Shown piece by piece: positions 26,399 to 48,143 of a stretch of DNA of 64,000 bases. The stretch comes from Mammaliicoccus vitulinus (GTDB lineage: Bacteria; Bacillota; Bacilli; Staphylococcales; Staphylococcaceae). The stretch lies in assembly GCF_029024305.1 (NCBI RefSeq), contig NZ_CP118974.1, forward strand, positions 1,426,001 to 1,490,000, read 5' to 3'. The position numbers were made by a program, and so were the translations under genes. The notes below the pieces were generated by a model. The model had not been told where the DNA came from. It did not search any database and saw nothing but the letters and a program-made list of their open reading frames with translations. Each line of letters begins with the position of its first letter. Within the stretch, counting starts at the first letter, position 1.

Positions 26399-26608
26399 TT
26401 AATCTATAGACCCTACTATTGTATTTGAATCAGATAAATGATTAGGTTGTTTATGTTCGTGTTGTTTAATTTGATGATCTGTCATCTCGTACGTCTGTTC
26501 TGTTGTATAGATATCATTTGACTGAGCTAAATATAAATATCCTATTAATAGAGTCATTAAGAATACTGCCACATATACTAATATTGTCTTCTTAACTGTA
26601 ATTGTCAT
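26399..26608 (-). CDS. sosA: SosA-type SOS-induced cell division inhibitor
   Basis: Small membrane protein of 69 residues, divergent from lexA, in the position of Bacillus yneA. The N-terminus MTITVKKT is followed by a transmembrane helix (about 9-27) and a hydrophilic extracellular part with His/Gln/Thr-rich sequence (TDHQIKQHEHKQPNH). SosA of S. aureus has this layout and blocks septum completion during DNA damage. I use the ATG at 26608, about eight bases from AGGGGG; the TTG six bases upstream is too close. The promoter and gene start carry two LexA-like boxes. Confidence 0.85.
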   Translation of the reverse strand: MTITVKKTILVYVAVFLMTLLIGYLYLAQSNDIYTTEQTYEMTDHQIKQHEHKQPNHLSDSNTIVGSID

Positions 26609-26616
26609 AATCAATT

Positions 26617-26720
26617 CCCCCTAGAACGTTTGTTTGTATTTTTATGATAACAGAACAACTGTTCGTAGTCAATAAAAATACGAACAAATGTTTGTTCGAA
26701 GGAAACGTATGTGCTATAAT
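26617..26720. promoter_or_regulatory. Divergent sosA/lexA promoter region with three LexA boxes
   Basis: For lexA, TTGTTC (26692-26697) and TATAAT (26715-26720) are 17 bases apart, and CGAACAAATGTTTG (26681-26694) overlaps the -35. For sosA on the minus strand, TTGACT (26667-26672) and TATCAT (26644-26649) are also 17 bases apart, with CGAACAGTTGTTCT (26652-26665) in the spacer. A third site AGAACGTTTGTTTG (26623-26636) lies just ahead of the sosA ribosome site. All three fit the GAAC-N4-GTT(C/T) core. Confidence 0.88.
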
Positions 26721-26752
26721 ATGGTTAAATAATTTATTGGGAGCGTGCGACT

Positions 26753-27373
26753 ATGAAAGAATTAACTAAACGTCAATCTGAAATATATCAATTCATCAAA
26801 CATATAGTACATACGAAAGGTTATCCACCTAGTGTACGTGAAATTGGTTTAGCGGTTGGCTTAGCATCAAGTTCTACAGTACATGGTCATCTATCTAGAT
26901 TAGAGGAAAAGGGATATATCAAACGTGACCCAACTAAACCTCGTGCAATCGAAATAATCGAAACAACTGGTGAAAACATTAACCAAGAGAATACTATCCA
27001 TGTTCCGGTTATAGGTAAAGTTACAGCAGGTATTCCAATTACAGCTGTTGAGAACGTTGAAGAGTACTTCCCATTACCTGCTCATTTCACTTCTACTCAT
27101 AATAGCAATATCTTTATTTTAGATGTTATTGGAGATAGTATGATTGAAGCTGGCATACTTGATGGTGATAAAGTAATTGTTCGCAGTCAATCCATTGCAG
27201 AGAATGGAGATATTATCGTTGCCATGACTGACGATGATGAAGCAACTGTTAAACGCTTCTATAAAGAAGAAACAAGATATAGACTACAACCTGAAAATAA
27301 TACAATGGAACCTATTTATTTAGATAACGTAACAGTATTAGGTAAAGTCGTAGGATTATTTAGAGAAATGTAA
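26753..27373 (+). CDS. lexA: LexA repressor of the SOS response
   Basis: Self-cleaving transcriptional repressor, 206 residues. The winged-helix DNA-binding domain covers residues 1-70 ([20 protein letters not shown]). The scissile bond is A92-G93 in VTAGIP. The catalytic dyad is S129 (GDSMIEAG) and K167 (ATVKRF). The start ATG is about ten bases after GGGAG. Its own promoter carries a LexA box over the -35, so it is autoregulated. A terminator follows at 27381-27411. Confidence 0.98.
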
Positions 27374-46727: not shown

Positions 46728-47096
46728 TTAATGTAAAATTGTAGATTCTAATAAATATGTTTGTTCATATTTCACTGCTAACTGATGTATAAATTGCAGT
46801 AATTCATGAGCGCTAATATGATTGCTTTGAAATTGCTCTTTATATTTTATATATTGAGCTTTTTCCTCGTTGGTTGCAATTTTTTTGAAATATCCCCACA
46901 TATGATCAAATGTATTCATAATTGATCCTTTAGTTGGCTCTGTTTTTTTAGCTGTTTTAATTTTAAATTCTAACGCTTCATACGACAAGTTACCTTTTAG
47001 TGATTCTCTAATATCTAAATATGCCTTTTGGCTATGCATCATTACGTTATATTTTTCATATCTCCACAATTTTTCAATCTCTGACCTACTTTTCAT
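46728..47096 (-). CDS. DUF1722 (YbgA-like) protein
   Basis: Helical domain protein of 122 residues. The DUF1722 core is plain: EKLWRYEKYNVMMHSQKAY at the start, then MWGYFKKIATNEEKAQYIKYKEQF, and LLQFIHQLAVKYEQTYLLEST. In E. coli YbgA sits beside the photolyase gene phr. Here it is co-transcribed, four bases behind a DNA-glycosylase-like gene, so a photodamage repair link is suggested, not shown. The start ATG follows AAGGTGATGAA. Confidence 0.82.
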   Translation of the reverse strand: MKSRSEIEKLWRYEKYNVMMHSQKAYLDIRESLKGNLSYEALEFKIKTAKKTEPTKGSIMNTFDHMWGYFKKIATNEEKAQYIKYKEQFQSNHISAHELLQFIHQLAVKYEQTYLLESTILH

Positions 47097-47100
47097 TTCA

Positions 47101-47574
47101 TCACCTTCTCACATTGCAACGAGGTGCTATATTGTCTTGAGACCACTTTAAATATAGTAATTTTTGATATTCTAAGTATGCTTTATCACTTAGTAGTTTA
47201 CAATCACCGTATACATAAAATGGCGGTAATTTTTCATTTGAAAGCACACCATCTTGAAGTCCTAAGTTAATGACTTCACCCATTGTTTGAATTTTATGTT
47301 CAAATTCAAGCGATCTTTTTCCGCCTCTTCTTTTATGTTCTTTATCCATTTCTAATAATATTTGATATGCATCTAATAAATAAGGTTGGCCATTATTAAA
47401 CACATGTTTTACAATCGGATGATTAAGATAACGGGTATCGCCTTTTATATATCCCAACTTTGCTAGACAAACATTAATAATCTGGTATAGTTCTAATACT
47501 TGTTTAGACAGTCTGCGATTATCTAAAAATTTAGCACTTATTTCATGATCTTCACTTATTCTAAAGATTTGCAT
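47101..47574 (-). CDS. Pyrimidine-dimer DNA glycosylase-like (MSMEG_6728-type) protein
   Basis: Protein of 157 residues resembling the family annotated as pyrimidine dimer DNA glycosylase/endonuclease V-like: SAKFLDNRRLSKQVLELYQI near the N-terminus, then YLNHPIVKHVFNNGQPYLLDAY and KEHKRRGGKRSLEFEHK. The N-terminal MQIFRIS lacks the exact T4 endonuclease V start (Thr2), so activity is uncertain. The ATG at 47574 has GAGGTATAAGCATAT upstream. It is the first gene of a pair with DUF1722. Confidence 0.6.
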   Translation of the reverse strand: MQIFRISEDHEISAKFLDNRRLSKQVLELYQIINVCLAKLGYIKGDTRYLNHPIVKHVFNNGQPYLLDAYQILLEMDKEHKRRGGKRSLEFEHKIQTMGEVINLGLQDGVLSNEKLPPFYVYGDCKLLSDKAYLEYQKLLYLKWSQDNIAPRCNVRR

Positions 47575-47651
47575 ATATGCTTATACCTCTTCTCATCATT
47601 TATTCATCATAACAACTCCAAAAACAAATCAATTTTGAAACTATCTATATA

Positions 47652-48143
47652 CTAGTCATGCAAATCGATTTGATAAAATACTAAATCCAACCAAGTTGCG
47701 AATTTATATCCCACTTTTTCAAGTGTACCAACGTGTTTAAAACCTTTTCGCTTATGAAGTATCACACTACCCTCGTTTGATGAATCGATACCTGCTACCA
47801 TCGTTCTATATCCATTTTCTTTTGCAATTAAAATTAATTGATCTAATAACTGTGAAGCAATGCCTTGTCTTCTATAATTAGGGTTTACATAAATGGAATG
47901 CTCAATCGTATATTGGTAAGCTGCCCAATCTCTAAAAGGACCGTAAGAAGCAAAACCAGCAACTTCACCATCTTTTTCAAATACTAGTACTGGAAGATTG
48001 GATTTCAGTTTACTATTAAACCATTCTTTTCTTTCCTCAAGATTTGTTTTCTCGTATGTATAAACAGTTGTTGTATGAACAATTGCATCATTATAAATAT
48101 TTAATATACCATTCAAATCATGCTCAGTTGCATTTCTAATCAT
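47652..48143 (-). CDS. GNAT family N-acetyltransferase (phosphinothricin-type)
   Basis: Acetyl-CoA-dependent acetyltransferase, 163 residues. The N-terminal IRNATEHDLNGILNIYNDAI and the central SYGPFRDWAAYQYTIEHSIYV are characteristic of the Pat/Bar/YwnH subgroup; the acetyl-CoA loop is YRRQGIASQLL. Likely substrates are small amines such as amino-acid analogues. The start ATG has GGAGGATACTTA upstream. Single-gene unit. Confidence 0.9.
   Translation of the reverse strand: MIRNATEHDLNGILNIYNDAIVHTTTVYTYEKTNLEERKEWFNSKLKSNLPVLVFEKDGEVAGFASYGPFRDWAAYQYTIEHSIYVNPNYRRQGIASQLLDQLILIAKENGYRTMVAGIDSSNEGSVILHKRKGFKHVGTLEKVGYKFATWLDLVFYQIDLHD

Follow-up and report, generated by a model that had tools for sequence, protein, structure and literature searches.

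A DUF1722 gene is paired with a gene for a predicted T4 endonuclease V-fold protein in Mammaliicoccus vitulinus and may serve a photodamage response without photolyase

Introduction

In a 64,000-nucleotide stretch of the Mammaliicoccus vitulinus chromosome (hereafter the window), a DUF1722 gene directly follows a gene whose product resembles DNA glycosylases, and the question is why these two genes sit together. A first-pass annotation made from the sequence alone had read the pairing as a hint of a photodamage or nucleic-acid repair function that works without photolyase. In an attempt to evaluate this reading, we analyzed the families, predicted structures and junction of the two genes, and their distribution relative to photolyase, UvdE and TudS in genomes of the family, the class and the phylum.

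Results

Organization of the locus

Both genes lie on the minus strand of the window, and the features of the locus are as follows.

46728-47096, minus strand: stand-alone DUF1722 (PF08349) gene of the YbgA type, 122 aa, all-helical product
47097..47110, minus strand: Pyr_excise/DUF1722 junction, where the DUF1722 Shine-Dalgarno sequence AGAAGGTGAT, read from the sequence, overlaps the last Pyr_excise codons and stop
47101-47574, minus strand: Pyr_excise (PF03013) gene, 157 aa, product with predicted T4 endonuclease V fold
47575..47651, minus strand: leader of the pair, with a Shine-Dalgarno-like AGAAGAGG ahead of the Pyr_excise start codon

The two open reading frames and the gap of four bases between them (47097-47100) were confirmed as annotated. 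The junction reads ...AGA AGG TGA TGAA ATG, where AGAAGGTGATGAAATG places the ribosome-binding site of the DUF1722 gene inside the end of the Pyr_excise gene. A Shine-Dalgarno sequence located in this way suggests that translation of the pair is coupled. Further upstream, 77 bases separate the Pyr_excise start from the stop of a GNAT acetyltransferase gene on the same strand (47652-48143), whose top NCBIfam match is the arsinothricin acetyltransferase ArsN1b at 125.8 bits, under the cut-off of 210.

No LexA/SOS box was found at the pair, while boxes do occur at a lexA-like gene of the same window. In that region (26399-27373), several SOS-box-like sites (26623-26698) lie at the gene at 26753-27373 on the plus strand, with a small divergent ORF (26399-26614) beside them; we take the former to be the lexA-like gene and the latter to occupy the sosA position, both names being our assumption.

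Predicted T4 endonuclease V fold and changed catalytic positions in the upstream protein

The upstream gene had been likened to pyrimidine dimer DNA glycosylases, with the MSMEG_6728 family as the suggested relative. That family assignment fell, since the MSMEG_6728 model (NF038085), whose cut-off is 100 bits, shows only a weak N-terminal similarity to the 157-aa protein (20.3 bits). PF03013 matches the protein at 52.1 bits (cut-off 23, E 8.5e-14), and also matches 15/15 members of group A1. An AlphaFold2 model computed from an alignment of 41 sequences (mean pLDDT 93.3) was aligned by VIA-align with T4 endonuclease V (2end) over 121 residues at an rmsd of 3.2 A and a Z of 10.6, a range (below about 13) in which the tool warns of unspecific scores for helical proteins and in which the PF03013 match here agrees with the T4 fold. 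In this alignment, model residue 1 pairs with T4 residue 2, and the next unrelated chain reached only Z 6.0. Foldseek returned T4 endonuclease V (1enk) at an insignificant E of 4.3, yet with TM scores of 0.46/0.52 that stood far above the rest of the list. The E-x3-RG motif of the T4 enzyme is likewise present, as E79, R83 and G84.

Sequence-level links to the T4 enzyme are faint: in the PDB, neither the window protein nor its family profile retrieved the T4 enzyme by sequence, which was hit only by the profile built on the remaining PF03013 clades, and weakly (E 0.014). When the profiles of the two PF03013 groups were compared directly, the match was weak (E 0.019) and the alignment slipped. 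On the evidence of the model and the PF03013 match, we assign the T4 endonuclease V fold to the protein, and the structural relation to glycosylases presumed by the first-pass annotation is thereby borne out.

The catalytic positions tell a different story from the fold. According to the part of the source used here, T4 endonuclease V employs its N-terminal Thr amine together with a glutamate, Glu22 in processed numbering (PMC3285167). Among 41 aligned staphylococcal-type sequences, the N-terminus M1-Q2 is invariant in all, as are an LDNRRLSKQ stretch and the RC at the C-terminus, which is longer than that of the T4 protein, and the T4 N-terminal Thr (gene residue 2) is absent. Judging by the invariant stretch and by the common starting point of the two chains in the structural alignment, T4 Arg22-Glu23 (gene numbering) corresponds to R21-L22 of the window protein, in which no acid occurs at residues 19 to 27. 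Outside this subfamily, all 17 aligned PF03013 proteins have a Glu that aligns to T4 Glu23; the clostridial fusions described below retain it, with the preceding Arg replaced by Ala or Val in 4/5. As neither Thr2 nor Glu23 is conserved, catalysis by the staphylococcal subfamily is putative. Hence the likeness to a pyrimidine dimer DNA glycosylase stood as regards family (PF03013) and fold, and found no support as regards T4-type chemistry.

The protein might still be an ordinary T4-type pyrimidine-dimer DNA glycosylase/AP lyase that uses its own N-terminal amine and some other acid for Glu23, with DUF1722 as an accessory DNA-binding subunit. The T4 fold, with model residue 1 aligned from T4 residue 2, agrees with such an enzyme; the invariant MQ N-terminus is what would be expected if the N-terminal amine were used; D18, E28 and E79 are invariant acids that could substitute; and the complementarity with photolyase reported below points the same way. 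However, all 41 sequences have Leu where T4 has Glu23 (or Arg, should the helix be shifted by one residue), set against the Glu kept in the 17 other PF03013 proteins aligned, and a Gln at position 2 should leave the initiator Met in place, given the specificity of Met-aminopeptidase. We therefore regard an unmodified T4-type glycosylase as unlikely.

The window protein is 71% identical to its homologue in a genome of the same genus (G018). A tblastn search with the staphylococcal Pyr_excise gave no match in phage or plasmid collections, nor in viral contigs, and the only matches in PADLOC (anti-phage defence, E 0.0088) and PHROG (phrog_624, 'DNA binding protein', E 0.0012) were weak.

The DUF1722 protein and a possible tRNA target

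The DUF1722 identity given by the first-pass annotation was upheld by PF08349, which matches residues 15-121 of the 122-aa protein at 72.9 bits (cut-off 22.5, E 3.4e-20). The AlphaFold2 model has a pLDDT of 96.6, and none of the solved chains with which it was compared is clearly related to it (best Z 3.9). An initial iterated profile of DUF1722 was discarded because it began to collect PF03013 proteins.

In the portions of the RudS paper that we draw on, RudS is described as a TudS-DUF1722 fusion that strips s4U from tRNA, its DUF1722 binding tRNA on the anticodon side by docking and mutagenesis, and light-responsive operons with photolyase are noted for some RudS genes (PMC11417400). The searched text of PMC11417400 contains none of the terms 'UvdE', 'Pyr_excise', 'glycosylase' or 'endonuclease'.

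Because DUF1722 is reported in that source as the tRNA-binding half of RudS, a tRNA target is possible for the window pair: DUF1722 might bring the T4-fold partner to tRNA photoproducts, such as the near-UV 4-thiouridine-8/cytidine-13 crosslink, which would then be bound or processed. Besides the anticodon-side binding, the departure of the active site from that of a DNA glycosylase fits such a role, and ThiI (the s4U synthase) was matched in 17/17 genomes tested, the window genome among them. On the other hand, the other DUF1722 partners, UvdE and photolyase, are known for DNA substrates, and overexpressed stand-alone YbgA, in the same partly consulted source, left tRNA s4U unaffected (PMC11417400). 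RNA as the target appears to us improbable.

A further alternative is that of a split RudS, in which the stand-alone DUF1722 and a stand-alone TudS act in trans and the neighboring gene is incidental; such a split is speculated on in the part of the RudS paper considered here (PMC11417400). The window genome does carry a stand-alone TudS elsewhere (C1:2175123-2175554), but far from the pair. In the largest genus of the family, TudS occurred in 16/67 genomes with DUF1722 versus 11/17 without (p 0.003, ignoring kinship), an anti-correlation that speaks against the split, and single proteins joining PF03013 to DUF1722 exist. We give this alternative very little credence.

Stand-alone and divergent DUF1722 copies were also seen in other contexts. 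DUF1722 was found on 12 plasmid records, all from Lactiplantibacillus or Lacticaseibacillus; three inspected ones had no photolyase, UvdE or PF03013 annotated nearby in an incomplete gene table. One Lactiplantibacillus plasmid (L284, NZ_CP113425.1) carries, some 2.5 kb from its stand-alone DUF1722, a gene for a Y-family DNA polymerase. Two unannotated records labelled Staphylococcus phage (OR844997.1 and OR850145.1, hits H13 and H14) carry a DUF1722 that is 47.5% identical, and could be host DNA. In the same order, a 378-aa protein (L236, 4048-5184) has a C-terminal DUF1722 preceded by 260 residues without a Pfam match. The class sample further contains divergent DUF1722 proteins of 160-241 aa (L226-L235, L239-L240) with no photodamage gene nearby, which possibly have other functions.

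The pairing recurs in Staphylococcaceae

Among 108 Staphylococcaceae genomes, DUF1722 was present in 87 and PF03013 in 31, and all 31 also had DUF1722 (Fisher p 4e-4, ignoring kinship). The recurrent pairing that the first-pass annotation had expected of a gene-neighbor survey was found: 13 of the 31 PF03013-bearing genomes have the two genes no more than 500 bp apart, and the pairing reappears beyond the family, also in the form of fusion proteins. Pyr_excise precedes DUF1722 in eight of the 13 close pairs, one has the swapped order at 476 bp, and four are convergent and spaced by −4 to 4 bp; in Jeotgalicoccus marinus the two ORFs overlap by 4 bp. In one of the remaining genomes the genes are 882 bp apart, and in 17/31 they are more than 1.5 kb apart, several of these by 6-27 kb on the same contig. 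The distant genes and the four convergent pairs indicate that a single operon is not required. Neighbor clustering of 86 family DUF1722 loci placed most copies at several different sites with no photodamage genes alongside. In single genomes of the family, DUF1722 is duplicated (G054) or truncated or broken (G079, G104).

In the family, DUF1722 accompanies PF03013 or photolyase, which seldom occur together

Photolyase, required to match both Pfam domains (PF00875 and PF03441), was found in 49/108 family genomes, and no photolyase match was obtained in the 2.65-Mb window genome. UvdE was found in 0/108, the window genome included. Genomes with PF03013 rarely carry photolyase (3/31 versus 46/77 of those without; Fisher p 1.3e-6, ignoring kinship), and the same pattern was observed within the largest genus (2/14 versus 45/70; p 8e-4, ignoring kinship). 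Taken together, at least one of PF03013 and photolyase occurred in 74/87 genomes with DUF1722 versus 3/21 others (p 1.3e-9, ignoring kinship), and in the largest genus in 57/67 versus 2/17 (p 2e-8, ignoring kinship); neither was present in 13/87 DUF1722 genomes. Four family genomes carry DUF1722 directly ahead of photolyase, at a distance of 15-27 bp.

DUF1722 is joined to UV-damage enzymes in other lineages

The survey was extended to a class sample of 378 and a phylum sample of 398 genomes; in the latter, TudS and UvdE were assigned by local profiles made from Pfam-checked members. DUF1722 was present in 92/378 class-sample genomes. Outside the family, 60 class loci were evaluated, the remaining class matches being for the most part weak ones from genus g275, plus a small number that were second matches or fell below the cut-off. 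In these 60 loci, DUF1722 was fused to TudS in 21 and to UvdE in 2, had PF03013 immediately downstream in 16, and had no photodamage gene within 500 bp in 21. The 16 pairs, spaced from an overlap to 24 bp, came from all 14 DUF1722-bearing genomes of genus g14 and two of genus g332, and in them DUF1722 is followed by a PF03013 gene of another clade than the staphylococcal one.

The phylum sample gave 30 DUF1722 matches in 27 genomes. Twenty-eight of these were fused to TudS (10), UvdE (13) or PF03013 (3), or adjoined PF03013 (2), and the other two were poor, one broken and one under the cut-off. DUF1722 occurred in 8/25 PF03013 genomes versus 19/373 others (p 8e-5, ignoring kinship), leaving 17/25 PF03013 genomes without it; the control genome of Lactococcus lactis likewise has a PF03013 match and no PF08349 match. 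Both domains exceeded their Pfam cut-offs in three clostridial-type proteins with N-terminal PF03013 and C-terminal DUF1722 (L021, L026 and L027), and two further PF03013 fusions were sub-threshold for DUF1722 (L029, 17.3 bits against 22.5; L030, not reported by Pfam). In the scanned UvdE-DUF1722 fusions, Pfam recognized UvdE in 10/10 and DUF1722 above the cut-off in nine, the tenth scoring 21.5 against 22.5. By raw count, PF03441 was found in 0/34 non-family genomes in which DUF1722 is fused to UvdE or is either paired with or fused to PF03013. In one phylum-sample genome (L051), a RudS (TudS-DUF1722) gene and a photolyase-like gene run in the same direction and overlap by 4 bp.

In a tree of PF03013 domains, the staphylococcal, g14/g332 and fusion groups are separate, with 21/39 inner branches poorly supported and a long-branch warning; this separation suggests repeated, independent joining of DUF1722 and PF03013. 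A chance or historical neighborhood of two independent genes could be argued from the 17/31 family genomes with distant genes and the four convergent pairs. It is opposed by the occurrence of the pairing in three separate PF03013 clades and in both gene orders, and the existence of single-polypeptide fusions in particular makes coincidence highly implausible. In the literature searched, with most subscription papers outside reach, we found no description of these fusions or of the photolyase complementarity.

Discussion

The strongest result of this analysis is the association of DUF1722 with enzymes that act on UV-altered pyrimidines, and it accounts for why the two window genes sit together. 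The recurrent pairing, the fusions and the complementarity with photolyase, with neither photolyase nor UvdE matched in the window genome, favor the photodamage role without photolyase at which the first-pass annotation had hinted. We consider that the pair is probably a small photodamage-response operon that replaces photolyase, consisting of a T4-fold partner with an altered active site and a nucleic-acid-binding DUF1722. In such an operon, the upstream T4-fold protein would recognize UV-damaged pyrimidines and process or mark them, by a chemistry presumably altered in keeping with its N-terminal Met-Gln and the Arg-Arg-Leu that stands in place of Arg-Glu, and the downstream DUF1722 protein would be its helical nucleic-acid-binding partner. 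The nucleic acid served may be photodamaged DNA or tRNA, both being possible. The joint action of the two proteins, their binding to damaged nucleic acid and the chemistry are what we infer from these distributions and models.

Several known systems resemble the window pair in part. The product of the upstream gene shares the fold and the E-x3-RG motif of T4 endonuclease V, and differs from it in having neither the Thr at its N-terminus nor a Glu at the catalytic position, in its extended C-terminus and in its pairing with DUF1722. We take ybgA and phr to form an operon in E. coli. In Shewanella, by the part of the source considered, ybgA is the first gene of an operon with phrB that is listed under the sigma factor RpoE2 (PMC4336711). 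These operons have in common with the window a stand-alone DUF1722 adjoining a photodamage enzyme, whereas the partner in the window is a T4-fold protein in a genome without photolyase. RudS likewise contains DUF1722 and has a link to UV stress, with some of its genes in light-responsive operons according to the portion used (PMC11417400); unlike in RudS, the window DUF1722 is a stand-alone protein and its neighbor is not TudS. A further parallel is offered by the clostridial UvdE-DUF1722 and Pyr_excise-DUF1722 fusions, in which DUF1722 is joined to a UV-damage enzyme and, in the latter, in the same order as in the window. Those are single polypeptides, however, and their Pyr_excise belongs to another clade that has kept T4 Glu23.

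More speculatively, and with doubt on our side, DUF1722 might be a general photodamage adaptor that was recruited separately by at least four unrelated families (photolyase, UvdE, T4 fold and TudS), the staphylococcal T4-fold partner having lost its glycosylase residues and been re-tooled, perhaps for photodamaged tRNA. If true, this would amount to an undescribed photolyase-independent photorepair or photoresponse system.

The only DUF1722 function that we found in the literature is that of the tRNA-binding half of RudS, and stand-alone copies such as E. coli YbgA are unexplained. The fusions, and the way in which DUF1722 tracks either photolyase or the T4-fold protein, turn this into a testable hypothesis, namely that DUF1722 serves photodamage enzymes generally. 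The staphylococcal T4-fold subfamily with its changed active site offers a test of whether this fold has been turned to a different chemistry or nucleic acid, and the pairing, which recurs mostly where light-driven DNA repair is missing, points to a little-described means of handling UV damage.
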